Assembly: GCA_021234155.1 (NCBI GenBank)
Contig: JAJEKV010000005.1
Span: forward strand, 372,001-436,000
DNA length: 64,000 nt
Direction: 5' to 3'
DNA from: Isoetes taiwanensis
Lineage: Eukaryota > Streptophyta > Lycopodiopsida > Isoetales > Isoetaceae
The notes beneath the pieces were generated by a model. That model did no database searches, had not been told where the DNA came from, and saw nothing but the letters and a program-made list of their open reading frames with translations. Position 1 is the stretch's first letter. The number at the start of each line of letters is the position of its first letter. The translations under genes and the position numbers were made by a program. Positions 960 to 55,751 of the stretch are shown one piece after another.

Positions 960-3900
960 AATACGGCCATCTGGACTATCTTGCTCAATCCTCGCTTTCC
1001 TGTCAAGGATCTTGAAATTGGATTTCATGGCTTTGCTACTCTTCACAATATCTGGAGTTAAACTAATTGTTTCCAAAACCACAAATGATATGGTGACAAT
1101 TACAAAAAATGTCTTCGTCACATCTCCAAACTGGCCATTTTATCTCTTGTCAACTTGGCCCCATACTATAATGCAACAAAGTCCATAAGAAGGAAATATC
1201 AACATTTGAGATATGCCATATTCTAACCCAGCTATTTGTCGTCTGACGAAGTTAAACTGCTTTGTTAGCAAATAAGTTTACTAATCCCTGATATGAGGTA
1301 CCCTTTCTGGCAACAGGCTCAAACCAAGAAACAAACACCTCTTCATAGTGAGGGAGATTAGGGTCCTCTACTGGGTCCTCTTCCGCAAAGGCCATCCACG
1401 TCGGGCAGTTATCATGTGGCCTGATCAGCAAGAGCATTCCTTTCTTCACATCTTGGTAGGGGTCGAATATTTCAACAGGGTTCTTGGGTCTACCAGAGAA
1501 AGGCCCGGACGAATGAGATGCACCAATGTGTTCATCCACCAATAAGTTGTCGGGTTCTTCTAATGCGGTTTGTCGCGGTCTTTGGGCCGTGAAACTCAAT
1601 GACGGTTCTACCCGGGGTGAATGTCCCCAAGCACTCGCGAACAAGGTGGACCAGTAGTCAATAACTTCATTCATATATGTGTTAGACCATGAGTTATCGC
1701 CGCTCTAGAAATAGGCGCCAAAGTGCATCATGTACTTTGCAATTGAAGCTCTCAAGGCACCTATATCCGTCAAGCTTTGATATGGTCTGCACTAACCTTT
1801 AGGTGACCCTCTAGGAATCATAGGTAAGCCTTGGGCATCCTCCTTCCACATTTTAATTCCCTTTTCAGGTAGCCACTCCCTATGCCCTGGCCTCATCTTG
1901 TAGAACATTAGTGGCCATCCATCATTCATGCAGAACTTGAAGAGTAGAGGTTCCAAATGACCACATAAACGGTCCTTCTTATCAGGGATAAAACCTTTCA
2001 CGAATTCTTTCCAGTTGGGAACCTCGACACACAAGGTAGGGCGAGGGAGACTTTGAACTACACCGCCTCAAGAGTTGCATAAGCTCCCGAATAGTCAATG
2101 CATCCGATCTTCTCAATAGAGTAGAGTAGTTTCCAAAGAGGGCATCTATGTCATCGTGGGTGTGTCCAACCATCATGAATCCCGCTTGCACCTGATCGAA
2201 GACACCTAACCAGACCAAGTATGACAAGTAAGAGAAAAGATACATGTTCTTGTTTTGTCCTGAGCAATTGTCTAGCTGCAAGTAAAGCCTCCTAGGCAAC
2301 TTCTTCGGTATCAGAGGGCCCTTGATAGGAGGCATAAAATCATTTCTAGTGCCATTCACCATTTTTGTCTTAAGGGCTTCCGTGTTCATAATTGCTCCAC
2401 CCCAGCAGCTTCCTTGATGATCTCATTTTCAAATGACCCCAGCTTGTCCTCAGATTGATTCTCTAGTGTTTTCAAGGTATGATTTAAAGATCCCACATGA
2501 AAATTCGAATCATTAGGCCAGAGGTCCAGCGAGAAGTGGCCCAAGGCACCTACACCATGCCCATGCATGAGAGCACCAGTAAGACTCACCTTCAACCATT
2601 CACCCCTCCATACAGATTTTGCTAGCTTCTCCAGACGAGGAACCATCGTCTTATTCTGATCCATCTTATCATGTATAATGGTTAAGGCATGTTCAGGAGA
2701 TCGATGAGACAAAGCTCTCCACGACCAAAGAAGACCCCGCAGGGAAAGTTGGGCTGTCATGTGAGATTTCCTTTCCACTGGCCGAAGCTCTCTTCTTTCT
2801 CTTGGATCTCTAGTCTTGGCAAGTTTCTCCTTTATCACAATACGTATTACACTTAGAAAATGCTATCCTTTTGGCGATTGCTACCTCAGAGTGGTTCTCC
2901 TTCCACGTTGACAAGAAGGACGATTGAGAAACATGTTTTCGCTCATCTCGTGGGACGGTTATATCTACCTCTTGATGTATGTCCTTTTTAGTCAAGATGG
3001 AAGGTAATCTCTTCACATTTTCTCTAGTTCCCCCACTCGTGAACCTTTTGAGCGTGTGGCATAGTTTCAGCATTTTCATCTATGTACATAGATAGCACAA
3101 AGACCACCTCCGGCCGGTGTATGAGACCTTGGCTTCATGGACCCGGAGTTTCCGGTTCCGCAATCCTCGGCCCTTCCATAAAAAGCTTCCTCCATTTGTA
3201 AAATGTAGAACCGGTATACCGTATGCACTATGCCATGCCTTCACACGACTTGCTCGTTGTTCAAAGATTAGCTTTTTTCACACATCCATTCTCTCGAACA
3301 AAGATCTAGCATGTTGTACTAAAAGTCGACGTTTTGAGCTTTTCATGTTCCAGTAGAAGGTCCTCATGGCGGATACCTCCTTAATCGTGGAAATTAGCAC
3401 AACATCTCTTCAAGCAAAGACATCGAGGACCCGAATCGCAAGATAGCTTCGGTGTGGTTTTCCTTTCACCTTTTTTGGGGTCGGCGCCCTCTCGCCTTCC
3501 TGTTCACCATGTGGTAATTGTCTTTTTTGTTACTCCAGCCTCCGCCTGATGGCATAAGCTTCCTTCTCGACCTCGGTCTCCTTCACGGCCCGAAACTAGG
3601 CTAGAAATCGGAATATGGCCAACGAACCAATGCTATTGGCCATCTCACCAAGTCATGCATCGTGGCATTTCGCACAAGCCCCGACAGAGCATAGAAATCT
3701 TTCGGGCATTGGCAACAAATTCATAATAGAAACCCCTATCCATGCTTCACCCAACTTCATGTCGATCACGACATCGTTTTGGATCTGCTAAAACGATGAC
3801 ACATGTACCATAAGGCAGTTTGTAGCACTCGTGCAGTAACTCACATGTCTTTTCCACTAGTTTATCCCTGCAAATCCCCTGCAATTCAATTGGTTCACTG

Positions 3901-4010
3901 TTTCCTTCACAGGCATTTACTGGAACTTGCCAATTTATCCGCTTGATCGACCGGTGGTGTGTTAACATCGGTGCCCGAGTGATTTCATTACAACGCCGCT
4001 TTTGGACCAA
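960..4010 (-). pseudogene. DUF7869-type protein gene, copy 1 (frame-disrupted)
   Basis: This minus-strand gene belongs to a large uncharacterised family (DUF7869) whose signatures I recognise. Reading from the 5' side: a possible N-terminal part at 4010-3747; a Cys-rich patch near 3420; LTKKDI and FLSTWKENH followed by FSKC at 3079-2810; IHDKMDQNKT in 2838-2386; LQLDNCSGQNKN and VGHTHDDIDALFG in 2389-1982; the DDGWP-type region NDGWPLMFYK with a WKED segment in 2034-1792; and PFSGRP with VSWFEPVARKGTSYQ in 1674-1252. A plausible last exon (acceptor TCCAG near 1068) ends with a stop near 960. The pieces change frame near 2835, 2386 and 2034; some changes may be introns, others are true breaks. 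The conserved D and H/D residues look like an RNase H-like transposase core, but that is inference. The function of the family is unknown. Confidence 0.65.
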
Positions 4011-4238
4011 AGAACTAAGCTACCGACGCCTTCCCCTAGGTGGTTCAATTCGGCTCGAAACCGGTAGTGGTATCTCGCCCATCAAAGACAACGACAAGAG
4101 AAACTACTATCAATTGCCCCGCACGGGACGTTGTGGTGATTTTTGAAGTTATGCACTCTGCCCTCAGCCACCTTCTTCCCCAACAGGTAGAAAGACTGTA
4201 GAGCTTCCATCCTAAAGAAAGTCAACACAGCTCGTCAA

Positions 4239-4675
4239 CATCGCGATGGCGATCCTCTGAACCTCATTAGTAGAAAAAATTCAGAGTACTCAAAGGCCAG
4301 AAGGGACGTCATAATACCTCAGGAAGATCGCGAAGGCGATCCTCTTGAGCACATGGGTATAAATGACACAAGCACAAGACACAGATGGGCCGGGGAGATC
4401 GCGACGGCGATCCTCTTCAGCACATGGGTATAAATGACACAAGCACAAGACACACGCCTTCGGACCTCCATGGTGGACATCTTGAATCCTTCAAATCTAC
4501 CTAGAATCTTTCTCTAATCTAACTAACCTTATTCAGTTCAAACTATTTTCTCTGACCATTTAAAAACCACTTATCTACTGGACTTACCTCGACAATATCG
4601 CAATCGCGATTAATTCGATGTAATCTCGCGTCGAGGTATAAGTGCTATGCTCCGGATGAACGCAGTCGCGATTCT
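4239..4675. repeat. GATCGC palindrome cluster A
   Basis: Imperfect palindromes of the form GATCGCGAnGGCGATCC occur at about 4239-4259, 4325-4345 and 4396-4416, with relatives at 4594-4615 (ATCGCAATCGCGAT) and 4661-4675. Each full copy carries a GATC or ATCG step in both arms. They lie just upstream of the minus-strand DUF7869-type gene, in the region where the two divergent genes would have their promoters. Confidence 0.75.
4325..4455. repeat. Direct tandem duplication containing a palindrome and a TATAAA box
   Basis: Two nearly identical copies of about 60 bp begin at 4325 and 4396 (71-bp period). Each contains a GATCGC palindrome followed by CACATGGGTATAAATGACAC. The copies differ at only a few positions, so the duplication is fairly recent. 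The TATAAA in each could serve as a core promoter element, but its direction of use is unknown. Confidence 0.8.
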
Positions 4676-4699
4676 TTCAGGCAGAGATCCGAACAGGTC

Positions 4700-5845
4700 C
4701 AACTGAGCAAAAAATAGATATTTGAGTAAGTCTCGCAAATCAAATGTTTATCGCAATATTAATTGCAGCTGTTATTTCCACAAGAAAATTGCCTTTCAGT
4801 AATTTTAAATGGAGATCTGTCGTGATCTGAACACCTGGGAGCAGAACCATTAGCAGAACCATTATGTTACAGTGTTATTCCCTCACTATCAGTTTGATCG
4901 AGAAATAAATAATTCAATTGGGCCTCGCGAACCAGATTATACAGATCCCTGAACAGCATATACCAAGAAAGAGATGGTGCAAATACAGTGAATTACATTA
5001 TGGTTGTGAAGGCACTATTATAACCTATACATAAACAACAAATCGAAAATCTCTCCTGAATTCGATAACTTCTAGCTGGATAAACAGTAAGGCATTAGGA
5101 TTTTGTACCCCGACAGCTTAAAGTAGGCGAGCGCCTTCAAGATGAGCCCTATAGCCCTTAAGAACAGATCGAAGCCCAAAACCCAACGAAGCTTAGACGA
5201 AGAACGAGCGCCCTCCGTAACACCCCCGCCGACATAATACCGGAAATCCCGCCTTCTAGATCGAGCGCGAAATTCAGGTTCTAAATTTGAAATGAGTTGT
5301 CTTTTTCAGTCCTTCAACCGCGCTCCATAGGCATGTAAATTTTGGTTCCGTAGGGCCTTTATTACGTACACAATTTGAATTTAGAGCCTCTTGTCCGGAA
5401 AATGCCACATTTACAATAAAGTTGTTGGGTGTCCATAAATAAGGGCGGCTGCATTAATGGTGGGTATTTATGAATGCCGGCCATATTAATGGCTGGCATT
5501 TATGGCGTGTCAGGTCCCGCACGTGCCGGATTAAATTAATCCGGTTTCCCCGACCAGTATTTATTCTCGCGATTCCTTCGACTTTGCATTCGCCCCGCAA
5601 CCCGACGGCGCCGAGCGATTCATAGCCGGACGCTTCGAAGCGCCTTCTACCGCGAAGCGTCTGAGAACCCGTTTTTCAAATCTTCCGGGCGCCGGGTGAT
5701 CCATGGCACCAAAAGCCCACCTCGAGAAGGTTAGTTCTAACCCCTCCGGCTCAAAAAGATCGGGCGGCGCGATTTCCTTCGATAGTGCATGTTTAATTAT
5801 ACTGTTCACCTTTTCGTAATGTAGTCATGATAAGGTCTGGAACTC
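4700..5845. other. Intergenic spacer between the divergent genes, with small palindromes
   Basis: No gene is recognised. The spacer holds a 19-bp perfect palindrome, CCGGATTAAATTAATCCGG (5526-5544), and an imperfect one (GCCGGCCAT/ATGGCTGGC, about 5477-5498) next to several CATAAATA/TATTTATG motifs. The position between two diverging genes suggests a bidirectional promoter region, which is inference. Confidence 0.5.
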
Positions 5846-5850
5846 AGCAG

Positions 5851-6061
5851 GATCGCGGCCGCAATCCTGGTGAGTGGTCGGATGGATCGCGTCCGCGATC
5901 CTGGCCGACGGCAGCATCGGCGGACGCGATCTGTTGAGTGGTCAACAACGGGGACGCGATCTTCACGAGAGCTTCATGACGTCTTGAGCGCGATCTTGTG
6001 AATCACTCATGAAGATCGCGGCCGCGATCGTCGTATGCTCTCATGAAGATCGCGACAGCGA
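5851..6061. repeat. GATCGC palindrome cluster B
   Basis: Copies are visible at 5851-5867 (GATCGCGGCCGCAATCC), 5884-5902 (GGATCGCGTCCGCGATCCT), about 5914-5931, 5951-5963, 5987-5996, 6013-6029 (AGATCGCGGCCGCGATC) and 6047-6061. Spacing is about 30-35 bp. The cluster ends at the apparent start of the plus-strand ParB-like/methyltransferase gene, and the last copy overlaps a possible ATG at 6043. Confidence 0.8.
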
Positions 6062-9000
6062 GCTTTGTTGAAATTACGGAAAAGGATGTGTGCGTTAGAG
6101 AATCGCGACACACCTCTTCCCTTCCGACTCTGGATTTGTTTGGTCCGGGCGTTGAACCCACTAAGATCATCACACCTTCAAATGAAAGAAAGTGGTGCAT
6201 TGAAATTGCACAGCAATTCCACACACTGGCTAAGGCGTACCGGCCAGAAAGACCTCTCTCGCTTGTTCCTCGTGACCGGCAAGAAAGCCGGCGACATCTG
6301 CCAGATAGGAATTGCAATCGCTATGTGGGAAGGAACAAAAACAATGTCCAAGACGCTCTAATATGCGTGAGAGGACACATACGTAATTTGCGTTCATTGA
6401 GTATGTTCTTAAATGGACAAACTATGATCCCTCGCTCATGGCAACTAGCAAGTTAAACAAGCCGCCCTGGGAAAGAATGTTCACCAGCGCGAAAGGATAC
6501 TACCGGGTACCGCAGTCCCTATGAATCTCGCTCTCTGTCGGGAATAACCGGGCAATAGGGATATATTATCCGCTTCTCGACATGCGTAAAAGGTTTGCAA
6601 AAGCGGATAAGAAACCACCTATCATTGCACTGAAAGCTAAACGAGATGAGAAGATGCCTTCTGTAATGGACACGAACTGGTTAAGGGCTCAGGCGAAGAA
6701 AAAACATGTGAAGCCTGTATCTCTAGCAGAGGCCTCTAACGCAAATTGGCAGAACAAACTGCACAGAAGCTTGAACAATTCAAACGGTTCTACCCGCTTG
6801 GTGTGAACTGGTTTATGAAGGTCTCAATATTCGATTCGAACAGAACCAGCCTCCCGCTAACCACGCTCAAACGACACTCTAGTGAAGAGTTTCAAAACGT
6901 ATCCTACGGAGGTGCTCATGCCGGCCGATGTTGTCCCATTCGACCCCATTACCAGGTGATTGTTATTGTTCATGATTTTTGGTTTGTGGCTTCTTAACTT
7001 ACAAGTACACGTTATATCAGGAAAAAGATCACGTGGAATACAGAGGCTGACCTTAAGGGCAAAAAATTTTGGATAATATCTGGTAACCATAGTATACGTG
7101 CATTTCCGGTTGCTATGCGGTGTTGTTGGAGAGTCGGAACAATACCGGAGTTTGTTAAAGTCTACGCGAGGAGAAGAACAAGAGTGCTTTAATGGAAACT
7201 TGACGGATAGAGAATACATTGAGTTGAGCATTCAAAGGCAATGAAGTAATCGCTAACATCGTATATATAGAGAGCCATTGATAGAGAAGCTCCAACAATT
7301 GCTGCATCAACATAAAGCGTATGGATGTCCTCCTCAAGGCCCCATTGGCACTGCCACCACCTCCGCATGGTAGGTATTTTTATTAGCCCACTCAATGACA
7401 TCGTGGCCGCGATTTCCCCGACCATTTGTTTTGTAGGACTTCCACGAGATAGCTACCACAACGTTGAAGGTGAAGGAGCTAAAGGGCGAGAAGCAATTTA
7501 TTTTATGGAGGAGTGGGTGTTGAGAAAGTTAATGGAAGTGGCCAACGATGGGTCAACAAGAAGATCCGTGATGAGCATGGAGATTTTCCCGATAAGCCCT
7601 CGAAGGACTTCTTCAACAAAACCTGGTTAAGATACCTTCGAGGCATGTCTAATGCGAGAGGTTTCTTAGCTTCGATGAGATTTTGGAAGGAAAGACATAC
7701 ATTAAGGTGCAAAGCAGATATCATGGCAGGTTTAATTGCCAGCAGCGCGCCATTGATATTAGAAGCCTGACCTTCATGCGGAAAGAGATTTTGTCATACG
7801 CTTCCACGCCGCCCGTAAAGAATACACTTTTTGGGAGGAGTTGCTTTCTGAATTTCCTGCTTTCACGGAACAGCGGATTCTAGATATTTCTGATTCGGAT
7901 ACAGAAGTACGTGAAAGCCAATTACAATAAGGAACATGTTGTGGGTAATTTACCCGTTGCATTTCTAGAACCCATTAGATCGATTTTGAAACCTGAAGAG
8001 GCTATCAAGATCAAGGAGAAGAAAAATGTTGTACATGCTGTAACAAAGGAAGGGATTCCTACCTCCACTCCAGTATCTGAGAATGCAACTATGGTGTTCA
8101 TAGACATTAGAGGATTCTCTGCATTATGGACGTGCAAGAAATATATGGAACTCTTCACAAGAATATCCAGCATGACAACTGCTAACATTTATCACCTTGT
8201 GATTCTGATGCGGTCTGCGAACTTGCGGATGCTTGCTTGGATGTACCAAAAACAGATTCAAGGCGGGTCCCATATTTCTGTAGGTACATATGACGAGCCG
8301 GGATGGGTGAACAAGAAAAGGGTGAAGGAATATCAGTATTACATCACCCATATGTGCATTAACAGAAGCGACTCCAGGGTGAACGCGATAATGCCGGAGC
8401 TGGAGCTTCGTTTGACACAGGTGAGCACTGCACCACAGAAGACGCCCTTGCCACCAATGCCTGTCAGTGGTGACGAAGATACTGATGAGAAAATGAAGAA
8501 GAAATGGCAGACATATTTCACGGGTAAACCCAGGTACAAGTTTGTCGGAATGGAAGGTGACCACGTGCTGAAGTGCCAGTTGAAGACATCATATGCTTAC
8601 TACCTGGTTGACAAGCTTGTGCCCAAGGATGGTTGTGTTCTTGATTTCTTCTCAGCAGGTACTGCTTCTCGTGTCGCCTTAATGCAGGGAAAGAAGAGTA
8701 TTGCTTTTGAAAGCCAGGGTAAAGTGTGCCGATTTCTGAGGGCTTTCCTGGATAAGCTCGAAAAACTGGTCAGGCAGGGCGCTGGGGAGACAGATGACGA
8801 GGATAAGGCAGAGCCTGAGAATGATCCTCATGCGGTCAATTTAAACATTACCCAACGAACAGATATATCTAACATCGATTCAATCTTGGATCAAATGGAT
8901 GAGAAAAGCTACGAGGAAAGAATGCAGGAAACGAAAAGACTTCTGGAGGCTAATGAGAAAGGTATTACTGCGCTAGAGCCCGTGTTTCAAAAATTGAGGG

Positions 9001-9381
9001 CTTTAAATGAAAAATTTGATGCCTACATGCCTTTCTTGACAGGCGGGTCGAGTTTCGAATACGTAGGCATGGTCGAGGACGGATCAAGAGGGTGAGCCAT
9101 CAGGCACACAAGAGCATCAGGTTCCAGCAATGAAAAAAAGCAAACTCTTCCATGCACTCGATATCGCATGTGCTGATACCCCCATGGATACTGACATTGA
9201 AGGACCGGATCCACATGTCCAACTCCTTGCGCAGACCATGTCTGTAGAAATCCCAGATAAAACAGGCTACACTGAGATGGACACAGAAGATCTTTTACAA
9301 AGGGGGCAGGAACATGTAGCTAGGATAGCTGCTGAGATAGGTGTTGTACCTGAGACAGTATCGGAAACCCAGATGGACTAA
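6043..9381 (+). pseudogene. ParB-like plus beta-class DNA methyltransferase-like protein gene, copy 1 (frame-disrupted)
   Basis: Several plus-strand coding pieces follow one another. A ParB-like segment is assembled across a 65-bp intron (6956-7020, GTGATT...TATCAG) and reads KKFWIISGNHSIRA, then LTDREYIELSIQ after a frame change; it corresponds to YYVLGGTHSYKA and TDEEAKVIAVSHN in copy 2. A second intron (about 7368-7436) carries a GATC-type palindrome. The longest open stretch, 7911-9095, has the order of a circularly permuted N6/N4 methyltransferase: VFIDIRGFS at the place of the catalytic motif IV (normally D-P-P-Y), then CQLKTS and motif I, LDFFSAGTASRVAL, at 8631-8690, then a coiled-coil-like acidic tail. 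A frameshift near 9093 joins it to a last piece ending at 9381. Motif IV here is DIRG, so activity is doubtful. Confidence 0.6.
7397..7417. repeat. Intronic copy of the element 1 palindrome
   Basis: ATCGTGGCCGCGATTTCC lies inside the second recognisable intron (about 7368-7436) of the ParB-like/methyltransferase gene. It is the only copy found within that gene body, and it avoids exons. Confidence 0.5.
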
Positions 9382-9506
9382 TTTCTGCCCATATGGCAAA
9401 GGAATGTACATTGAAATGTTTGAGGAATACAAATTACAATTCTTTGAGTTTACTATTTCAGTTTTGTTTTTTGTCTAAACGTTCCTTGACATGACAACTC
9501 ACAATG

Positions 9507-9629
9507 TTCGCCACCGCGATCCTCATTATCACTTTCAATTCTTTTTATCCATGTGTAGAGCTTAACGGAATTGTAATATTACATCCATGGGCTGGCTAGG
9601 CAGCTTCAAATCTTCGCCGTGGCGATCCT
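9507..9629. repeat. GATCGC palindrome cluster C (3' side)
   Basis: Two copies, TTCGCCACCGCGATCCT (about 9507-9523) and TTCGCCGTGGCGATCCT (about 9613-9629), lie 3' of the methyltransferase gene. Together with clusters A and B they bracket that gene. Confidence 0.7.
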
Positions 9630-9639
9630 GCTGAGTATT

Positions 9640-15545: not shown

Positions 15546-15547
15546 AA

Positions 15548-15760: not shown

Positions 15761-16062
15761 CTACGTATAGGTTTTTTCCAAATCTTCAAAAAAACAACCT
15801 GTATTTTGTTTTTACTGTTGTTTTCAGCCGTGGACCAAATGTTGGGGTTGTAGTGTGATGAATATTCGCACACTAATCTAATGGCAGGTACGTGCATTGC
15901 CTTTTTTATTATTTGTTTCATTCTCCATGTTCTTTGTTTGATTATAATATGTTCATATAATATAAGACTTCATTTTTTTTCTATATTCTATTCTTTTGCA
16001 AATTTTATATGGGTTTCTATGAGGAATTATATAGATTTAAGGCTTGTTAATTCTTCTTCTTT

Positions 16063-17636
16063 ATGACCGTTAGGCAAAGAGTTCATGGCAGCGTCACATC
16101 GAGCATATCTTATGCATTTGCTAGAAGTCGTCAAGGGAAGTCCATTTTATTCTTGATTGTGTACACATGTTACTTGATGGAGAAAGGAAAAGGCATTCCT
16201 TGCACACGTTTCTTAAAGTTGCTTGGGATTAAGGATGGTACATCGGATACCATTTATCAAAGTCTCATTGCTTATTTAGCTGACTTGGGTTTACCGATAT
16301 CAAGGCTAGTGGGTATTGCAACAGATGGTTGTAGTAGTATGGTTGGGTCTCAAAACAGACTTGTCACTCAATTACGAAGGGATGTGCTACACTTGGTTGG
16401 TGTACATTATGTGGCCCATCGAGAAGCTCTTGCAGCAAATGATGCCTTTAATTTCTTTCCAGTGTTCAAAGATTTGGAGAAGTTGGCAAGAAAAGTATGC
16501 TCATGGGTAGGCAGGTCTAGCAAGATGCATGAGAAATTGCGCTCGTTGGAGGAAGCTTTTGAGTTACCAAAGTTAAACTTGCAGCAAATTCATGAGGTAA
16601 GATGGTTGTCTCGTGGTAATGTACTCACCCGCATTGTTAAGTTGATGCCTGCTCTATTGCGTCTATGGGAGACGAATAATGAACGTGAGCTTCTAGCATC
16701 CTTTGAAAAGGCGAGTGTCCAATTTTATTTTCATTTTCTTGCCAATGTTTTGCTTGAGCTTCATCTTTTAAACAAGCAATTTCAAGAAGGAAGCATTGAG
16801 ATCTCAAGCATCTCGTCTACTGTTGCCTCCACTATTGGGATTTTAAAGTCAATGTTTGTTGGAAACTCATTTGGAAGGGGAGCAAAGTTTATAATCAAGT
16901 TCTTCTCTATGGTCAATGAGTTTCATGGCCATCTAGTTTATGATGATAATGATGGAATTACTCACAAGCGCGTGCTTTTATTTGATACATTTATAGTTGT
17001 TAAGTAGAGTGGTGGCTATCACTGATTTTATATAAATGATGGTGGATTTTGTAATAGGTATGCGCTTTCATTTGATACATCATCATTTGAAGAGATAATT
17101 GCATCATGTGGTAGGCTTGGTCAACAATACGTATTGAAAGTTATATCATGTTTGAAGACAAGATTTAATATGGAAGACACATGTAATGTTTTAGTAAGCA
17201 CAAAGCTTTTTAGCACAAATGATTATGCAAGCAATGAGAAGGAAATAGAAGGTGAAACTGCAAGAACTTTAGCGAAGGTAAATATGCATTTGTTGATGTT
17301 GAGAAATGCATTGCACAATCTTATGCCTTTGTAGTGAGATTAATGGTGCAGCATGGCCGCAAAAATATGAGGGCATTGTGGGATGCTTATAGACTGATTT
17401 TAACTTTGATGTTTATGACGAGGTGATGAAACTATGTCAAGCACTTCTTGTTCTTAAGCACAATGGAATGTGAGCGTGGTTTTCGACGACAAAACGTGAT
17501 AAAAGATGATTTACGAGAAAGTTTGAAGCTGTTAATGTTTTTATCATTGTCGCCTGATGTGGGAGATGCAAATTATGATCTGATTTTTGCTACTTGGATG
17601 CAAGACAAGCAACGCCGCATGGTGCCATTGTGAAAC
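16063..17636 (+). pseudogene. hAT-superfamily transposase remnant
   Basis: An open frame at 16063-17007 contains VGIATDGCSSMVGSQ, a spacer, VHYVAHREALA and HEVRWLSRGNV, which match the catalytic region of hAT transposases of the ZNF862/DUF4371-like type (the ATDGxxxMxG and HCxAHR signatures, here with VHYVAHR). The frame stops at 17007 and continues in others: 17134-17334, then 17448-17633 with MECERGFRRQNVIKDDLRESL, which matches the C-terminal dimerisation region (ERGFS..N.IK...R..L). No N-terminal BED finger was found. At least two frame changes make it a dead copy. I could not define its terminal inverted repeats. Confidence 0.75.
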
Positions 17637-18490: not shown

Positions 18491-18496
18491 AAAACC

Positions 18497-44450: not shown

Positions 44451-44456
44451 AAGGTT

Positions 44457-45010: not shown

Positions 45011-45019
45011 CAGTGCTTC

Positions 45020-47140
45020 AGTGCTACAGGTATTCCATAGATGCATTTCGCACATTCAGCTTTGCCCATTTGAGATATTGAAAACAACTTACATTATCTC
45101 AGAATCCAAACAACTATGAAGCTCATATTCAGGTTTTCAAAGACACATTCTATTTTTTCCTTTATTGCTCATCTAATATGTCATTGTTACTGGCTTGCAG
45201 ATTATATTGCATTGCGAAAGCGAGAGCGTGCACAAGCAAGGAAGGGCAATTCTTGCCATCACCGAAAATTGTTTTCCCATGATGTGTGTGTTCATCCAGT
45301 TTCTTTGTTTCAGAAACAGGTCTTTGGTGCATTATAGGAACACGCAAGAAGCCGCTCCTCCAGTTTATCATATTCAACTGAGGCCTATGTAACTGGAATA
45401 ATGAGAGCATTTATAGCAACTGGCACAAATATATGGATTTTGAGGCCTATATAACTGGAATAATGAGAGCATTTATAGCAAAATTTGGAAGCTGTAGTGT
45501 CGGTGCTTCATTAGAGGAAACTTGAGAATGGAGAGAAGATATCTTGGTTGCTGCAAAATATATCTTCAGGTGTAACTGCCATGTTCTGCAATGATGTCAT
45601 GCTATGCACTTATTTTATCATATCCATTACTACTTAGTTCTGGCTACCAAGTTCCTTAAATTTTGAGTTGCATGCGTCATTTGCATATTCTTTATTGTTT
45701 ATAAATGTTGCTTATTCCATAAAGAAAGATGTGCTATTCCATGAGTTACAATGTTTTTAGAAACACATTGTTGACATTTCAAATGTTGAAAAGTTCAAAG
45801 TTCAAATGTATTCAGAAATCTGATGTTATGTTCTTAGGTACATAGTATTGGTAAAGGATATGTCCTCCAGCAAATGATCCACTGCTTTTGACACCGCTTT
45901 GTCTACCATATCTTCTCCAAACATCTTAAAAAGTATTGATTAGCAGGATTTTTAGTACCTCCATTAATCAAAGTAGGGTATTCGGAGTCTCAGGCTCAAA
46001 GTCTAAATTTGGAGCCTATAAATTATGCAATTTAAAATATATGGTTTACAATAACACATCATTCATTTTGTACTTTTATTTTATTTTGATTTTTATTTTC
46101 TTGTTTACCTCAGAGTTTATCTATGTTTGTTTCTTTTGGGGCCCGAAGGGCCCAAAAAAATTTCTATTCTAACAACCAACATAACTACTATTAACATAAA
46201 TTAACACAAACCATTACATTCAACATGGTTAAAATTAAATTCCCCCTTAAACTCCCTTTTGTTTGGGTGCATATTCGCACAGGGGGTGACTCCAGGCAAC
46301 GAGAGCTGTTGGATAGGCATATTCACCCCTTATTCCTTAATCTACATCGTACACAAAGTTCCTCGTTTGTGGGGTATGGACGTATAGAAATTGTTATACT
46401 GTATAACAAAATTTGCAAAATACTATAAGATCCACATACATACTATATTATTCACATTGCGATTGTAGATCCAATGTGTTGCCCATTTTTGGCAACATGG
46501 ACCAGCATCTATGTATCAAAACTTTTGTTTCATTTATATTTCCTCTAAGGAAAATTCCAGGCTATTGTGATCCCATTAGAGTTTGGAAGACATTTGACCA
46601 AGATTGGAAGGCATTGGGGATCTCATTTTATAGCCTAGTCTTTTCCTTGAGGTAAAGCACCTTTCTAGACACATTCCCATTTGTTTAACATTTTCCCTTT
46701 GATTTGAAGACCAGGCAAAGGCTATAGCAAGTTTATCAAGGAGTCACAAGGCATTTTACCAAAGTTCAACCTTATGAAGCTTACTTGAGTTGCATTAGTA
46801 GTTTTGAGGTCACACACATGAGAATGCCATCTTGGAAGTGAAATTTGCTCTTATTCTAGCCTTGAAGTTTGGAAGACCCTTATAGAAGTTTGGAAGACCC
46901 TTAGGTTTTTGAGCAAACCTATTTTCACCATGAGGTGTGATTTGAGCTTTAGAAACAATATGAGAAGAAATCAAGCGCTACAGAGGTACCCATTCATCTT
47001 ATATCCACCTTTTTTATATCCCAAGAGCCTTCAAAAACCTTTCTTTCACCATTTTTTCCACCTTTGAGTCCTTTTCTCATCATTCCACTACCCATTTTTT
47101 ATTGGTCCTACCTTCATTTGAGAATTGCCCCCTAATGAAC
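45020..47140. other. Non-coding stretch before element 2
   Basis: No gene recognised. A direct repeat of about 38 bp (ATAACTGGAATAATGAGAGC or its one-base variant) occurs at about 45381 and 45442. Confidence 0.45.
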
Positions 47141-47144
47141 AAGG

Positions 47145-47180
47145 TTTAAAATGAAACGCACTTATTTAAGAAGTGCGTTT
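47145..47180 (+). repeat. Left terminal inverted repeat of element 2, with fold-back
   Basis: The first 23 bases match the complement of 55729-55751. Inside it, AAACGCACTT (47154-47163) is followed after 7 bases by its complement AAGTGCGTTT (47171-47180), so the end can fold back on itself. Confidence 0.8.
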
Positions 47181-47614
47181 GAAAGATTCCTTTATAAAAA
47201 TTCAAAACTTGAAAAAAATGGACAAAATAGGGAGCAAAATAGATTGTTGAGCAAATAGCATTCAAAATACCCCAAAAAAAGCAACATTTTTGAAGCATTT
47301 TCATTTTTTAAGAAGAGCAAAAAAAAAAAAGCTTGTTTTGAGGAGAGAGACATTACATTTAAAAACTCATTAAGTATTTGTTGTTGAAAATAGAAGGAAA
47401 TATAGTTTTGTGTTTTTTGCAAGCTTAATATAAGTACTAAGAAAATCAAACATAGAAAAGAGAAAGAGTCCCAAATCATGAATCAAAAAAAAAGAATTGT
47501 TCTAATTAAGCATTGTTGAAGAGACAAAGTTTTCAGTTGAGAAATCTTCATCAAAATATATTGAAATTCTTAGCACATAGATTACAATGAAAGATAGTTT
47601 AAAATGTCCGCTCA

Positions 47615-47629
47615 GTATAAATTTATCTG
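47615..47629. repeat. Leftmost copy of the element 2 palindrome
   Basis: GTATAAATTTATCTG, a variant of GGTATAAATTTATACC, lies about 470 bp inside the left end, 3' of the methyltransferase gene. Confidence 0.6.
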
Positions 47630-48363
47630 AGGAGGTGGCTCTTCCCAAATCCACGGGACTCTCTCTCCCCTTAGGATCCGTCTCTTGCGAGGTTATAATA
47701 GCGAGACGCCCCCTTCCGATTCCAATGGTACAGTGTAGTGTCGTTTCTCGCTCAGCACCACAGCTCCCGGATCGAATTTAACTCCACCTCCTCATCTCTT
47801 CTTCCCATAAGTGGAGGTCGGATTTCAGATATGTGCCTTTTACATCGCCAAGCACCATTTTTTGCTCCCAATTCCTCGTTTTTCATCGGGAAAAGATTCA
47901 CAAGAGCTTATCCCGGGTCGATGAAACTTATTTTGTCCGGTCCATGTCGACGGAGACAACTTATTTGCGCTTATGGGCTTAAATGGCCGTGGTGCCCGAG
48001 CCAGAAAATGCGTCTAAGATCCGTCCCCTGTATGAGAAAACCATCAGATCAAATTATTAATAAGTCATTTGTGGCTTCGATAATGGGACACCACAGCCTT
48101 TGTCGCCGTGGGTCTCTTAATTTTTGCAAAACCAGGGAAGGCAAAACGCATTGCGGGGAGGAGTCTTCTCATTTCGCAGATTAAAGTGAACCATGGTTTT
48201 TTGGCTGCTGTTTGTAAAACCCTATGTGAAAATGCTCGAAACAACTTACTAAGCGGACCACCACCATGACCCTTAACGTTTGTTTTAAGCCCGCCAAACA
48301 AAGACAACAATGAAATATTAGTAAAATAAAAACAAGGAAAATAAGTTAGCTCAAGAGTGTGGC

Positions 48364-48495
48364 GGTATAAATTTATACCGGGGTTGCCTTTGCGGTATAA
48401 ATTTATACCGCGTCGCTAGTCCGTATAAATTTATCTGACATTGCCTTGCATATATAAATTTAAACCTTAGGGCGGTTGTGGTATAAATTTATACC
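48364..48495. repeat. Palindrome cluster in a methyltransferase intron (five copies)
   Basis: Copies at 48364-48379, 48394-48409, 48422-48437, 48451-48466 and 48480-48495, at 28-30 bp spacing. Three are perfect GGTATAAATTTATACC. They lie downstream of the GT donor at 48536-48535 on the minus strand, inside an intron. Confidence 0.85.
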
Positions 48496-49569
48496 GTGGA
48501 GTTACTAAAAGAAAAGCTGTTAAATGTTAAGCTTACCAAACGCAGTTTTCAAAGCCGCAGATTAAACTCCCATAGGTTTAAGCACCGACATTGTTTGTAG
48601 GTCCGAATGGAAAATGATGACCCTCCAAATTAGCGTGATAAGGTGACTTCCTTCAGGGCCTTCCAAAAGAGTGGACTTGCGATGCGGAAAGCCTCCTCGT
48701 CAAAAAGCGCTGTCCTTAATTTTGAAACCATAGGGAATGTCCGCAATGCATAATGTAAAGTTTCGCTTCTCCAAAAGTGTCCCCAGTGCGTAAATCACCC
48801 TCAACAACTCGTACATGCAGTCCGACCAAACGTTGTAAATCTTTCATAAGAAGTGTCAAAGCCGCTAGTGGCGACCTCCTTTCCCCGTTCGATTGCCTTA
48901 AGTCTCGGCCTCTCTTCCTTGGCCCCTACGAACCAGTTTTAAAAAATCCAATGGAGCCCCTTTTTCTTGTTCTCAGAAGAATATTGTGAGAAAAAAGGCA
49001 CAAACACGTAACATATTTTAGCAAAACTTACCCGACCACTAAAGTTGGGTAACAGCGTTTCTAATGATACTATCAGTGGTACAACTTGGGTAGAGAAGCT
49101 TGCACTCCTCCCAGTCCTCTAGGTTTAGCTGCTTCATTAACTCGGCCTGGCAGGTGACAATGTCTTTCTGACTGCAAAGAGAAACATGTTGTAAGACCAG
49201 AAAATGTAGAAGAAACACGGCATTGCAAATGTGGCTTACGTCTTAGCTTCCTTGGCCATTTCGTCTAATGTAAATTCCTTGGCCACGACTTTTTCCAAAA
49301 GGCTTAACAAAAATTTTCTTTGCTTTTTAATCCCTATAACTCAAGGCCCGTGGTACAATGCTCATATTTTTTTGCTTTTAATTCTCCACCCTTTTTGGTT
49401 TTCCATGAGTCGGGCTTGCTCTTTAAGCTCACCATCTTCGAACATACAAAAAATTCTTTCTTGAAGATCCCACACCTGTAAATGGACAAACGCCATTAGT
49501 TTAGTGTTGCTTAGCGTAAGAGAATATGTTGCACAGTCTACTTTCTAAATACGCATGGTGTGTAGTCAC

Positions 49570-49750
49570 GGTATAAATTTATACCGTCCTCGGACACCTG
49601 TGATAAATTTATAGGCGACTAGACACGCAGATAAATTTATCCGCATGATTAGGACGGTATAAATTTATACCGCGTCTCCGGTCCGGTATAAATTTAAACC
49701 GTCCCTAGTCGCGGTATAAATTTATACTGGCCACGGTATAAATTTATACC
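49570..49750. repeat. Palindrome cluster in a second methyltransferase intron (seven copies)
   Basis: Copies at 49570-49585, 49601-49615, 49629-49642, 49656-49671, 49685-49700, 49713-49728 and 49735-49750. Spacing is 22-31 bp. All lie inside the intron between the exons ending at 49816 and starting at 49475 (minus strand). Confidence 0.85.
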
Positions 49751-51437
49751 GTGCCAAGGCACTTGTAACCACGCTAAACATACTACAAAACATAGAAAGA
49801 AGAGCATTTACTTACTTGACCATCTCTGAATGCCAGCTGAAAGTAGTTATCGTATTGCTTTACTGCCATAATGGGCTTCTTATCATAGTCATAGCTGAGG
49901 CAAAGCACTCTGTCACGCAGGCTTCTCGAAGCTCCTGCAGCCTTGTTCTTTTGCTTTTAAAATCCTCTCCATGCATTTGTTTAAATTCCACGCACTCACG
50001 TTGCATGAAACGGATCTTGTCTATTAAACTCATTTTTAATCAAGTCATTGTCGAGATTATGACTCACGGCAATGACTTTTGCTTCTTCATCCGTTACACC
50101 AACGATATATGTGCTTCAACGGCTCTTCCACACTTTCTACGGCTTTCCTCTTTTGCTAGTTCTTTCCTTGCCTTGTAACTATGTGTGCCTCCAAGAACGT
50201 AGTATGTGTAATCTTCAAGTCGACCTTCTTGTAATCTTTTAGTTGGTTGACCGACTCGGCCCACCATAACAACTAGTGGCGACACATGGGCATGAGGATT
50301 CCTTCTCATTCTTTTGTTTCAAGATAGCCACATGTGCCGCGATGACTTCCGGACCAGAGCACTCGACCCCATCTTCATTTTTAGGTGGCCTCTTAATGGT
50401 GCTCAATGTCAAAGAAATAGTTTGCTTTAGCAGTTTAGTGTCATTCACCCGCTTGAGAATACCACTTGATTTATCTGCGGGCTTCACAACAATATCTGCT
50501 CCAGGAGCCTTCTGAAGAGCTTCTGTTGACTCCTCTATAGTCAAAGACTTTGTGCCTCTAGATTTCTTTTTTGTAGGAGCCTGTGTATCTACTACCAGGG
50601 AATGCTTCCTACCCTTTCCCTTTGTTACCACCGGGTTCCTCTTCCTCTTCTTCTTCTACTTCCTCGCCCTCTTCTTCAAGCTCTTCGACAGGAGTGGGGT
50701 ACCACTGACCTTTGACCAACTTTGTTTCTTCAAGAAAGCAACAACCGACATCAAAATGTCCACTATATCCCGTGAATGGGTTAAGTTAGGAGGATGACGG
50801 TGATAAATTTATCGTAAAGACACTAAACAATACTTACATGGCCACTCTTGTAATTGTCAGCCACGTACTCATGCACATCTTTGGGTTTGCACATGCTTAT
50901 TCGAAGCATTTTACTTTCAAGAACGTAGAAGACTTCCCCTTTGTCATGCATGCACTTCATTAAAATTTCATCATCGACGCCTCAGAGCAATAAGGTTGAC
51001 AATTTCACGGGGGGTAATAATCGTCGGGCCTTGTACTTGCCCTTCCCTCGATTGATGACACAAGTAAAGGCACGCCTCGGTGGGTTTGCTCTCTCTTGCA
51101 CCCCCGTGGGACGCACCAACGCCCTGGTCTTTCAGTTCAGATATCTCAGGGCTCTATTGGTGCGACCTTTGATGATCGGGCCCTTGTGTACAAACCTGAT
51201 CTTGGGGCTGGAAAAAGCGTAAAGAAGGCCATTTTTATGCAAGAAACAGAACCTTTTTCGACCTTTTGTAACATAAAAACAGTAAAAATAGAGGTGAAAA
51301 GAGCATAAAATCTACACTAAATTATCACTTTATTTGTGTTATTTAAGCTTAAAACGCAAGAATATTACTAAAATATTAAGGTTTGCGACACTTCTTTAAG
51401 CACTAGACACCAAAATTCCAAAATAGTTCTCGGATCG

Positions 51438-51829
51438 GGTATAAATTTATACCGCCGAGCACGAAGCGGTATAAATTTATACCCAATTAGACAGCCGCAG
51501 ATAAATTTATACCGCTAGGTGCTCGAAGCAGTATAAATTTATACCGTTCCCAATACGCCGGTATAAATTTATACCGCAGGGAAAAGCTCGAGCGTATAAA
51601 TTTATACCCATCCAGAACACTTTTATGTGATAAATTTATACGATCGGTTCTTCGAATCCAGATAAATTATACCGCCGTGCTCGAAGGAGATAAATTTATA
51701 CCGCTCCGAACCATACTTCCAGATAAATTTATACCGATCGTATTCTCGAACCAGATAAATTTATACCGCCAGGAAGGAAAGTGTATAAATTTATACCGAT
51801 CCGTAACCATATCGGTATAAATTTATACC
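51438..51829. repeat. Regular array of 13 palindromes in intron 1 of the methyltransferase gene
   Basis: Copies of GGTATAAATTTATACC or close variants (some begin AGATAAATTTATACC) start at 51438, 51468, 51499, 51531, 51560, 51593, 51628, 51660, 51688, 51721, 51753, 51781 and 51814. Spacings are 28-35 bp, about 31 on average. Spacers share CGAAG/CTCGAA fragments, so the array partly grew by duplication of a longer unit. It lies just 3' of the start exon. Confidence 0.9.
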
Positions 51830-51940
51830 GTGGGCCATAATTCTAGCGTGATTAAAACAAAAGAGAAACTAGAACAAGACGGTAGTAGACTTACGCGGGC
51901 CATGACAAGATAGACCCGCAGATAGACGCTCCAGCAGAGC

Positions 51941-51950
51941 AATATATAAG
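51941..51950 (-). promoter_or_regulatory. TATA box of the methyltransferase gene, copy 2
   Basis: CTTATATATT on the minus strand lies about 40 bp upstream of the ATG at 51903. The spacing fits a TATA box with a very short 5' leader. The opposite gene starts about 340 bp away on the plus strand. Confidence 0.5.
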
Positions 51951-52082
51951 CCGACCGCTGAAAAACTTCGACTGAAGCCGCGATATAGAAAAAGGTGGTG
52001 GCCGGCGGGCTTAAGTACCTCTGCTAAGTGTCGCCATATAGCTTCTCCATAAAGTTTTCAATACAAGTGTCCGTGAGTTTTC

Positions 52083-52227
52083 GTGATAAATTTATACCGT
52101 TTACGTTCTATGTTGCCCTCCCTCTGTATAAATTTATACCATCTCTCGTATAAATTTATATGAGTCTGCCGCCTTTAAGTTTTTTTTTCCCTGTATAAAT
52201 TTATACCAACTCAGATAAATTTATACC
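52083..52227. repeat. Palindrome cluster upstream of the DUF7869 gene (five copies)
   Basis: Copies at 52083-52098, 52125-52140, 52147-52160, 52193-52207 and 52213-52227. The last lies about 60 bp upstream of the ATG at 52286, and since each palindrome contains TATAAA on both strands it could act as a core promoter element. Confidence 0.8.
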
Positions 52228-52285
52228 GATATGGCTCGAGAGAAAGAACCGCAGAGCCTCAACTCGTTGCAGGCTTCCTCCCGCA

Positions 52286-55200
52286 ATGGCTTTCACACCT
52301 CCTCACCGCAGACACTGTGAAGTAGCCACTTAATATTCTACATCCGACATTCCAACACCCACCGTTGAGTTTACTCCAAAGAAGACCACCTCGGCTTCCA
52401 CCACCAGTTCAATTTACTCCACCACACCCTGCTCCTGAACGTCGTCTGCCCCCACCAATGCGTTTTACCCCACCTCAGGCTAGAGAGGTCAGACTACCTC
52501 CTCCACTTCATTTTAGTACGTCGCCCATAGTCCACCGTAGGCTCCCTCCACGGAGGCAAATCACACCAACTCCATCCATTTCGCTAAATGGTACTACAAC
52601 AAGTGGGAGCGGCAAAACGACACGCAACTCCCCGTGGTTCTACGACACTTCAGGAGCTGGTCAACTACGTCACCAGCCTCGATTACTTTTTCCCAGAGAG
52701 AGGGAAAGCACCTCCCCCCAGGACTTGCCCACATCAAACCTCTCAGCATCTACAAGTACACCTCATGTTGATCTCTCAGACGAAGAAACACCTCATGTTG
52801 ATGTCTCAGACGAGGACCTACCAAAGCCACAAGAGTCCATGTTCGAATTCAAAGCCCCTGCAAGTAAAAATCTTAAGCGTAACTTACACAAGAGAGCATG
52901 TACAACCGTTAGAAGAAAGAAACTCATGGACGAGGCTCACTTGCGGGCAACACATACAAAGCACTGTTGTTCTCAACGTTGTTTGCTTAAGATTGGACTA
53001 AAGGAATTGAGGTTGCTTCGTGATAGTTCTGATTCAATGACTCGCTAGACCAAAGGGGCTACTTAGCCTTCAATATTAGGCCGGATGATGGTGAGAAGTT
53101 TACTTACACTGCCTGGTGGCCACACTGTCATTGTCAAACGGCCTTCAAATTGATTCATGCTTTAGGCAAACAGACGACTTGACCGCCCAAGAAAAAGGCT
53201 TGACAAGAATCCGGGCATCAATGACTATCGCCATTCAGAGGCATAACCGTAATTCATGCCCTTCAATGTGTTTCCTGGATGGAAGGTTTCTTTAAGGAGT
53301 CTTGTGAGAAACTCCCTAACAGCCCTATGTACCACTTGAGTGACAATTTCACTAAAACAAGAAGTCGATAATTATAAGGAGATGTGTGTTGAGGCTGGAG
53401 AACGCTTTGTTCCGCTACTCTTACTTTTATCGTGGTTCGGAAAAAGAGTTTTCTCGGCGTGGCCATTCCTAGAAAGCATAGGATGTCTGTTTGTGCTACA
53501 TGCTCAATTAAAAGCTCGAGACAAAATGCAAGGACACTTCACACTAAAAGTAAGCTTCCGGGACGTGTTCTTGCCTAGTTCTAATTAAAAGTAGGTTCTT
53601 TCCTAAACATATTTTCCTTTCAGATGCATTGAAGGAGAAACTGAACAAGCACAGAGAACAACAATTTTTGGAAAGGAGAAAATTGACAAAACATAGGAAG
53701 AAAGCACTGGAACAACCACTCAACTACATATCGCTTGTTATTGATGGAATGGACCAGAAGAAGACCACCCTACCACATTTTGTCAATGTGCCTAAGGATG
53801 TCTTGAAGAAGATTTCATACATCCGCATGTTGTTGGTGCTATGGTATTTAATGGAAAACTATCTTGCAAGGCATTTTGAATTATCCAAACATTCATGCTG
53901 ATCCAAATCTCACTATCACAATATTGAATAAGCTTCTTTCCAATCTAGAACATATACCGGCTCAGATCTTGACTAGATAACACGACAAGGGAAAATAAGA
54001 ATCAGCGTTGTTTGTTTATCGTGTTATGCTAGTAGAGAAACAAATCTTCAAGAAGGTGAAGATTGGTTTCCGCTTGTTGGTCATACACACGACCAAATTG
54101 ATCGGATGTTCAAGAGGGTTCTCTAAACGCCTTGCTCGAAAAAAGCTCTAAGCCCCGCCAACCATGATTGAGGTCATCCAAGATTCCTACAATCCTCGCC
54201 CGGACATCGAAGTTATTGGAAGAAACTTATGATTTCAAGGAATGGATTTTTCGGAGAGATCAACTAGGTCATCGTGCTATTGAGCCCTTGAGAAACATTA
54301 CATTTCAGCATCAGCTCAAAATTTCACTTGTAGATGGCAAGGCCATCTTACAAGGAAAGAAATATGCCACATCCTTTTGGTGGCCAGCAAAGCAGTATTC
54401 AATTCATTTCAACATCCCCAATACTAGTTTCATGCTCTTCGCAGAGCAAATGCCTCTAAAAAAGCTTGAAAGAAATCACAAAGAGTAAAAAGGAGGGAAG
54501 AGCATTTGACTCAAATAAATCATTGGATTGTATTGAGACAAGTATTGGGCCCTGCTCTAACCACTTTGGGGAGGAGAGGATGCTTTATGGTGGCCTCAAT
54601 TTTTTTCTCGGCAATGTGACATGTTGCAAGCTTCATTACAAGGTCGAAGACCGGTTACATTCAACCGCCATCTAGGCAAACCCTCCCCAGGCAAGTTGAG
54701 AATCAAGAGGAACATGTAGAGATATTGGCTAGCTCTAGATGAAGATGACAGAGTCATGTACACCGCCCTAGACGCGACAAAGACAACAAGTTGCTCGAAA
54801 GTATCCGGGTTCGGCCTCGAGAGATTCAGAAGGAATGCTCATAGCTGTCCCGGTGATAATGATGAACCGGGAGGCCATTCTCGCTAGCTAAAGCATCGGA
54901 GGTAACAAGAGAGGATGGAATTCCCACCAATTAAAAGTGCATCGGATGAGAACGATCGCCGCTAATGCTTTCGATGGGAGTTATACTTTGGAGATGGTAA
55001 AAACAGAGTGGGAAAGAGAGCTAAGTCCAAAGCAAGCACTTCATGTCATAGATCTAATCAAGTAAAGGTTCTTGCATATGACTTTGTTCTGACTGCTGCT
55101 AATAAGTTACGTATGGTCACTCAAACTTTAATAAGGTCGGCATGTGGATTAGACAAACAAGCCAAAAAGGTGGCCAAAAAAGATGATGATGAAGACTCAC

Positions 55201-55346
55201 TTGTAGACAGTGAGGAAGAAGATCGTTCGAGTACATCCAGTGCTGAGAGTGAAGCTGAGGATGAAGGCTCGAGTGATCAGGGAATAAATGAGTCAGAGGA
55301 TGAGATGCATCCTGATCTTGCTGCAAAATGTAAGTTTGTCCGATGA
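52286..55346 (+). pseudogene. DUF7869-type protein gene, copy 2 (frame-disrupted)
   Basis: The gene starts at ATG 52286 (MAFTPPHRR) and runs through a Pro-rich N-terminus with repeated FTPP units (52365-52620), a short acidic direct repeat (HVDLSDEETP/HVDVSDEDLP) and a Cys patch, CCSQRCLLKIGLKELR. Later pieces give LSDNFTK and IPRKHRMSVCATCS (53335-53530), SLVIDGMDQKKTTLPHFV (53735-53795), LDNTTRENKNQ (from 53973), LVGHTHDQIDRMFKR in a shifted frame (about 54080), and FQHQLKISLVDGKAILQGKK (54300-54360). An acidic Ser/Glu-rich tail ends at 55346. The motif order matches copy 1, where DNCSGQNKN and VGHTHDDID are the counterparts. Several frameshifts and stops are visible. The function is unknown; a transposase-like role is inferred from context. 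Confidence 0.65.
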
Positions 55347-55728
55347 CTCGAACATGTAAAGAACAGAAAGTGCAGGTGATGATTGTCTGTCAAAATATCC
55401 TATATTTTTGACAATTTTGTTCATAATTTTGTACAATTTTCACAACCTTGAATATATCACTTCTTTGTCACTCTACTACCCTTGCTATTTTTTTTATTGC
55501 CCCTTTTTTGCTACACTTTATAAAAGTAACTATTTTTTGTTCTAGTTTAGGAGGATGAAAATTGCTATTTAAAATTTTTGCACGAAAGTTATGTTCAATC
55601 AACCCCTCAAAAATGGTACCTAAATTACTTAAATTGTCACACCTGTCACAAAAAAATCTTAAAAATGGACTTTTTTAAGGGAATTTTAGGGAATCTTTCA
55701 AAGATTCCTTTTGAAGTGCGTTTCCAGC

Positions 55729-55751
55729 AAATAAGTGCGTTTCATTTTAAA
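55729..55751 (-). repeat. Right terminal inverted repeat of element 2
   Basis: This 23-bp segment is the exact complement of 47145-47167. Just inside it, AAACGCACTT recurs once more on the minus strand in direct orientation (about 55715-55724), whereas at the left end the inner copy is inverted. Confidence 0.8.

Follow-up and report, generated by a model that had tools for sequence, protein, structure and literature searches.

In the Ectocarpus genome, the 21.5-kb transposon Sola1-1_Ec32 carries an opposite-strand gene whose product has ParB-like and N4/N6 DNA methyltransferase domains (PMC12477816). According to the parts of that account available to us, its authors suggested that proteins of this kind may bind the transposon that encodes them and modify it, cited similar proteins from green and red algal transposons, and gave in their Table 1 a single Sola-1 family of 1,989 copies, only 2 of which were intact (PMC12477816). 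Here, a window of 64,000 nucleotides from the genome of Isoetes taiwanensis (GenBank assembly GCA_021234155.1, contig JAJEKV010000005.1, positions 372,001 to 436,000 of the forward strand) was analyzed, and two of its regions were confirmed to be old copies of one two-gene DNA transposon family, which pairs a DUF7869 gene, most likely encoding the transposase, with a ParB-like/methyltransferase (ParB-MT) gene. Similar to Sola1-1_Ec32, as far as the available text describes it, the Isoetes element has a putative transposase gene and, on the opposite strand, a ParB-like/N4/N6 methyltransferase gene. The preliminary description of the window had hinted that no element of this kind is described, which does not hold, as Sola1-1_Ec32 already has this gene content and the general idea of self-marking is likewise known from Ectocarpus (PMC12477816). 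However, in comparison with the 21.5 kb and 1,989 copies of Sola1-1_Ec32, the Isoetes elements measure about 8.6–10.4 kb, show thousands of motif copies and inhabit a vascular plant. The two are likened by gene content, not by transposase sequence, and the available portion of the Sola1-1_Ec32 account mentions neither lineage-specific palindromes, nor a loss of the catalytic loop, nor a named target. In a literature search on ParB/methyltransferase transposons, judged from its listings, only the Ectocarpus paper was directly relevant; within that search, the large expansion in a vascular plant and the lineage-private palindrome arrays as candidate targets are apparently new, as are the retention of palindromes in short derivatives and a lineage without the catalytic loop.

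VANDAL elements are Mutator-like, and to our knowledge their VANC proteins contain no methyltransferase or ParB part. In the available parts of two reports, VANC is described to bind element-specific motifs in noncoding DNA and to make members of its own family lose DNA methylation (PMC5735166; PMC10398659), and the motif of VANC21 is given as the 9-base YAGTATTAY (PMC5735166). The VANDAL and Isoetes elements are alike in encoding a second protein and in that related families have different targets, which in Isoetes are candidate targets. In the same excerpts, VANDAL target motifs are placed in the noncoding DNA of introns, intergenic stretches and element ends, often as tandem repeats; the Isoetes arrays are likewise mostly noncoding, so that element-specific motif arrays in noncoding DNA, a VANC-type feature, are present in the Isoetes elements, with a putative role as targets, whereas the Isoetes dyads are 14–22 bp long as opposed to the 9 bases of the VANC21 motif. 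ParB/parS partition systems are characterized by a ParB-like G-x-H block and by long palindromic sites in clusters. The Isoetes protein similarly has a G-x-H block and its element has clustered long palindromes, whereas its ParB-like part is fused to a methyltransferase in a nuclear transposon, and its similarity to ParB families reaches only E values of 0.003–0.011. A transposon-borne DNA methyltransferase is also shared with the retrotransposons of dinoflagellates and charophytes that captured DNA methyltransferases; in the available part of that report these are C5 cytosine enzymes in retrotransposons, in contrast to the N4/N6-type enzyme in a DNA transposon of Isoetes (PMC5890265).

In both regions named by the preliminary description, the DUF7869 and ParB-MT genes were found back-to-back on opposite strands, with palindromes not only between the genes, as it had stated, but also inside them. 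The second region is indeed flipped relative to the first, since copy 2 has the ParB-MT gene on the minus strand and the DUF7869 gene on the plus strand, while copy 1 has DUF7869 on the minus and ParB-MT on the plus strand, and the motifs VGHTHDDID/VGHTHDQID, SGNHSIRA/GGTHSYKA and LDFFSAGTAS/LDAFSGSGTTA were all present. The limits of both regions had to be revised. Copy 1 (E1 lineage; 1291..9856), which shares 86–92% DNA identity with the genomic copies L014–L016, ends on the right at 9856 and not at 9640, with a terminal inverted repeat at 9838..9856 whose terminus reads ...AAATCGTGCTT; it is followed by ATAT, a possible 4-bp duplication of which the opposite side is missing. On the left, the copy is cut at 1291, where the similarity to full-length copies drops sharply, so the position 960 proposed earlier is no boundary, and the missing DUF7869-side end was not found in the next 4 kb leftward either. 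Copy 2 (E2 lineage), with both ends present, occupies 47138..55755 instead of 47145–55751 and bears the terminal inverted repeat AACAAGGTTTAAAATGAAACGCACTTAT at its left end and the partner at its right end; the latter lacks the terminal GTT by a small deletion, so that the target-site duplication is unreadable. The reading frames are broken in both window copies, which are decayed.

The Isoetes taiwanensis assembly (1,658,258,908 bases, or 1.66 Gb, in 1,110 contigs) was searched for further copies. The DUF7869 motif pattern gave 1,281 + 1,276 = 2,557 genome matches and the reversed control 0. The search with the DUF7869 family returned 9,910 first-look candidates, of which 150 were scored with 150 matches, and that with the methyltransferase open reading frame (ORF) of copy 1 returned 4,186 candidates, of which 103 were scored with 105 matches and stop-free frames of up to 697 amino acids. 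Perfect ends, assayed with a 28-base E2 terminal pattern, were matched 643 + 643 times, and the reversed control 0 times. Among the 100 E2 end matches listed, 24 plus/minus neighbours lay <20 kb apart; 12 of these 24 pairs spanned 8,357–8,855 bases, the 8.3–8.9-kb group into which copy 2 falls with its ~8.6 kb, while 4 spanned 2,202–2,261 bases, 2 spanned 4,790–4,812 bases and 6 had other spans. A 4-bp target-site duplication was present in all 15 copies with both ends readable, namely nine larger copies (L002, L003, L011, L012, L013, L015, L017, L018 and L020; four E2-type, one L003-type and four E1-type) and six short ones (L046–L051); the remaining large loci had no readable end in the stretch taken. 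In a scripted test applied to the nine larger copies, 5 bp were never equal. The duplication of L003, ATAT, is itself palindromic and may belong to the inverted repeat. A host tandem duplication was ruled out by the genome-wide copies with target-site duplications. The Sola superfamily is said to have been defined, by Bao et al. in 2009, by a 4-bp duplication and a DDD transposase, and the family fits a cut-and-paste DNA transposon of the Sola kind.

The linkage of the two genes was evaluated at ten DUF7869 loci, taken as every tenth match from the second onward among the 100 motif matches listed, with 10 kb fetched around each; these first 100 matches sit on low-numbered, mostly short contigs, and the sample is systematic, not random. 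By tblastn, the second gene was detected on the opposite strand and divergent in 7 of the 10 loci, and in L001 it lay just beyond the stretch and was found with 4.5 kb more, bringing the linked loci to 8/10, all 8 divergent. Of the other two, L006 had only a weak second-gene match (E 7e-4) and the rearranged L010 had none; at no sampled locus (0/10) was the second gene on the strand of DUF7869. Separately, 22 of the 150 best methyltransferase-exon matches were located within 30 kb of one of the 150 best DUF7869 matches, compared with a chance figure of ~0.8 (0.41 at 15 kb by script), and the orientations of these linked pairs were 19 divergent, 3 tandem and 0 convergent. Together with the terminal inverted repeats and the 4-bp duplications, these results bear out the earlier proposal that the pair is mobile as one unit, and in this genome the copies are neither mostly unlinked nor a single tandem host duplication. 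As separate observations on copy arrangement, an unusual head-to-tail array of four identical DUF7869 motifs, ~4.2 kb apart on one strand, was seen at contig C112:1332684-1345297 (-), and the DUF7869-side 1.4 kb of the full E1-type copies L021–L024 displayed apparent internal direct repeats of ~140–170 bp, seen as cross-matches between copies.

In copy 1, the decayed DUF7869 gene, a putative transposase gene, covers ~1393..4219 on the minus strand (tblastn with the L020 ORF, best E 2.2e-79); its GHTHDDID-coding motif lies at 2145–2170, and its exon 2389–2862 matched PF25273 (DUF7869) at E=7.7e-5, under the Pfam cut-off. Its counterpart in copy 2, likewise decayed and putative, covers ~52737..54305 on the plus strand (tblastn E 1.9e-49), with the GHTHDQID-coding motif at 54076–54101, and less decayed genomic copies matched DUF7869 at 1.9e-52. 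DUF7869 proteins of different lineages are only ~25–30% identical, and the aspartates in the blocks VIDGMD (HDKMD in the E1 type), LQLDN and GHTHDQID/GHTHDDID are conserved across lineages. DDD/E enzymes have aspartate blocks of the kind conserved here. Because of the conserved aspartates in three blocks and the 4-bp duplications, DUF7869 is most likely a DDD transposase. A search of the PDB retrieved no sequence relatives of DUF7869 at E values up to 1, and the literature searched contained no mention of it.

The second gene is predicted to encode a prokaryote-type protein that joins a ParB-like part, presumed to bind DNA, to a DNA methyltransferase part of the beta-class N4/N6 type. In copy 1 it extends over ~6130..9372 on the plus strand (tblastn best E 1.2e-169), with the ParB-like piece at ~6876–7504; motif I reads LDFFSAGTAS, the catalytic loop is deleted with FIDIRGFS in place of motif IV, and the ORF matched PF01555 (N6_N4_Mtase) at E=0.006, under the Pfam cut-off. 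The decayed gene of copy 2 extends over ~47761..50586 on the minus strand (methyltransferase part 47761–48774, ParB-like part 49950–50586; tblastn E 1.8e-10 and 1.2e-46), in which motif IV (IADIPYGF) and motif I (LDAFSGSGTT) remain readable. An L003-type exon matched N6_N4_Mtase (PF01555) at 5e-17, the phage methyltransferase family phrog_67 at 8e-20, and, among enzymes of known structure, CcrM, MboIIA and RsrI at 7e-9 to 2e-7. In L003, motif IV stands upstream of motif I, which is the order of beta-class enzymes. The ParB-like part has a G-x-H-S..A block conserved across members, and weakly matched three PHROG families named ParB-like partition protein (0.0032, 0.0037 and 0.011). Phage Dori gp42, among the best phage matches (15 of 120 records listed), contains a methyltransferase and gave no Pfam ParB match.

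The state of the catalytic site differed among lineages. Catalytic motif IV has the form (D/N/S)PP(Y/F/W). DLPYGF or DIPYGF was present as the catalytic motif in 6 of 9 E2/L003-type elements (L003, L004, L011, L013, window copy 2, and L053, which is the L001 element); it was unmatched in L002 and L012, and most of the L009 gene is beyond the stretch taken. In the E1 lineage, seven copies aligned with one L003-type copy showed a 9-residue gap exactly at the PYGF position and a glycine loop one residue short (SGSGTT to S-AGTA). With FID-x-R at motif IV in L014–L020 and in window copy 1, the loop is lost in all 8 E1-lineage copies read. The ratios of nonsynonymous to synonymous substitution rates (dN/dS) for close E1-lineage pairs were 0.33–0.43 for the methyltransferase gene and 0.19 for DUF7869, values biased to constraint as the pairs were picked among open-frame copies; for two wider pairs, saturation precluded an estimate. 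The simplest reading of these sequences is that the E1-lineage protein has lost catalysis and is still used. The many decayed copies could also be taken to mean that a single ancestor picked up the ParB-MT gene as passive cargo, but the gene stands divergent in lineages whose DUF7869 proteins share only ~25–30% identity, retains open frames of up to 697 amino acids and the above dN/dS of 0.33–0.43 (in pairs picked for open frames), and ParB-MT also occurs in the Ectocarpus Sola1-1, which renders mere cargo very improbable.

The palindromes were assigned to the two window copies as follows. For ATAAATTTAT, 29 of the 30 window sites lie inside copy 2, and 100 dinucleotide shuffles of copy 2 contained no 10-mer palindrome more than 2 times. 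These E2 palindromes form one cluster at 48364..48495, within an intron-like gap of the methyltransferase similarity, another at 49570..49753, between the methyltransferase and ParB-like parts, and arrays of the CGGTATAAATTTATACCG type with ~30-bp spacing at 51438..52228, in the divergent intergenic region of copy 2. In copy 1, the signal is the gapped dyad GATCGC-N4-GCGATC, found 4 times (at 4326, 4397, 5885 and 6014; span 4326..6029) plus half sites, against at most 1 in 5 block shuffles.

The large loci and both window copies were scanned for exact and gapped dyads, which revealed one dominant motif for most lineages. E2-type elements carry 24–36 cores of CGGTATAAATTTATACCG each, L003-type elements 6–18 cores of AGTGTATTCCGGAATACACT, and E1-type elements 3–9 cores of GATCGC-N4-GCGATC or ATCGCGNNCGCGAT; AAATGGCGC-N4-GCGCCATTT has 9 cores in L005 and 1 in L008, and CTCGACTCGCGAGTCGAG has 5 cores in L006. 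The dyads are near-perfect and 14–22 bp long. When each element was dinucleotide-shuffled 100 times, no 10-mer palindrome appeared more than 3 times; the E1-type and L006-type arrays, which in some copies are inconspicuous as exact 10-mers, were recognized by the gapped scan, with a null of only 5 block shuffles for each element. Independent genome-wide counts gave 7,218 sites for GGTATAAATTTATACC and 3,070 for AGTGTATTCYRGAATACACT, with 0 for the reversed controls. Chance palindromes were ruled out by the shuffles and the reversed-pattern controls. Across 22 elements, the five core motifs are nearly mutually exclusive, the cross-count being diagonal save for one exception; as the motifs were defined on the same 22 elements, the diagonal demonstrates exclusivity and is not an independent test.

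The methyltransferase similarity is interrupted by intron-like gaps, and the palindromes reside in these gaps and in the intergenic region between the two divergent genes. Within the gene spans of 12 of the 22 elements, only 3 of 201 palindrome sites fell in coding similarity vs. ~90 expected from the coding fraction, a contrast that is approximate as tblastn undercounts exons. Arrays that are mostly noncoding and roughly tandem might also represent promoter, enhancer or insulator sites of host proteins, or tandem repeats expanding in noncoding DNA without relation to the second gene, neutral expansion being usual for tandem repeats. However, neutral tandem repeats need not be near-perfect 14–22 bp dyads, nor survive the loss of nearly all coding sequence, and a shared host factor would not predict nearly mutually exclusive motifs among related elements of one genome; we therefore regard such an origin as distinctly unlikely. 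A helical phasing of the array spacing was also considered and dropped, since in L013 the spacing is ~31 bp in one array and ~28 bp in another.

The six short derivatives measure 2.2 and 4.8 kb; they align to a full element mainly at the ends and the palindrome arrays, retain 8–10 ATAAATTTAT sites, and possess target-site duplications in 6/6. In five of the six, neither gene gave a protein match at E 0.01, and L050 has a methyltransferase-exon remnant. Because the short derivatives keep the ends and the palindromes with nearly all coding DNA lost, the palindromes are suggested to be needed in cis by copies moved in trans. That short derivatives which still transposed keep palindromes besides their ends also speaks for the main rival explanation, in which the palindromes are bound by the transposase, or by a TnpA-like accessory protein acting in transposition, and are needed in cis for synapsis and cutting, while ParB-MT has another role. 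CACTA and other plant elements indeed have arrays of transposase or accessory-protein sites, and two sites of the E1-type copy L017 lie no more than ~400 bp from the end on its methyltransferase side. The E2-type arrays, however, are internal, in intron-like gaps and the divergent intergenic region, and in L013 only one site is found within 500 bp of the methyltransferase-side end, while the last site is ~3.5 kb from the DUF7869-side end. We consider this explanation rather unlikely, yet the likeliest of the alternatives.

We favor, with slightly better than even confidence, a Sola-kind two-gene transposon whose ParB-MT protein most likely binds the lineage-specific palindromes and thereby marks the element's DNA or protects it from silencing by the host. 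DUF7869 would cut and move the element as transposase, and the ParB-MT protein would bind the palindromes repeated within the introns of its own element and in the promoter region between the divergent genes. Its predicted role, to mark or shield the element DNA, corresponds to that of VANC in VANDAL elements. In the E2 and L003 lineages, ParB-MT can probably still methylate, as predicted from sequence, while in the E1 lineage, with the catalytic loop gone, the protein would act through binding alone. That ParB-MT is the binder, in place of the transposase or a host protein, and that the effect is anti-silencing, we infer.

Several observations weigh against the favored reading. The palindromes could be bound by the transposase or a host factor. 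The exception to motif exclusivity consists of 2 L006-type sites in L001+L053; all five motifs are missing from L010, a single exact site is present in L008, and the E1-lineage arrays, with their 3–9 core sites per element, are small. The sites in coding similarity belong to L017 (2/5) and L005 (1/12). The ParB assignment is weak, as Pfam ParB was matched by none of the 7 members and any single PHROG ParB family by at most 2/7. The AlphaFold models of DUF7869 (A1, mean pLDDT 43.5) and of the E1 methyltransferase exon (A2, mean pLDDT 36.2) are too poor to use, and the bias to constraint and the saturated pairs in the dN/dS assay belong here as well.

A broader joint claim can be put forward only tentatively, its truth as a whole being possible but doubtful: that a transposon superfamily in one lycophyte runs self-recognition via a captured bacterial ParB-methyltransferase, that each lineage would evolve a private palindromic address, repeated through its introns and promoters, by which the protein would locate its own kin and mark no others, and that one lineage would have dropped catalysis and kept the reader as a pure-binding shield resembling ParB spreading. 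The interest of the family lies in a candidate target that is visible in the sequence, as thousands of lineage-private dyads in one genome that are kept in short derivatives. The five motifs, several proteins and open-frame copies constitute a testable lock-and-key set for how selfish DNA tells itself from relatives and host, and with the loop loss of the E1 lineage, nature provides a test of which of the two counts, marking or mere binding. In addition, DUF7869 gains a likely function as transposase, and the elements offer a guide for plant N4-methylcytosine and N6-methyladenine data.

Other features were noted elsewhere in the window. A degenerate Gypsy-type long terminal repeat retrotransposon at 58343–63622 (+) retains a weak gag zinc knuckle, reverse transcriptase (PF00078, 4e-27), RNase H and integrase (PF00665, 3e-11). 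Between the two elements lies a host-type gene, a pectinesterase gene exon at 39102–39917 (+) (PF01095, 1.9e-88). A 318-amino-acid open frame at 16051–17007 (+) had no Pfam match, and by eye we take it to resemble a hAT-related transposase fragment. The host-gene-like ORF at 18470–19546 (+) gave a weak PAS-fold match under the cut-off (PF08447, 6.7e-5), and a purine-rich GGGGAA/GGGGCAA satellite-like array at 38144–38455 adjoins an AT-rich TTAA repeat.

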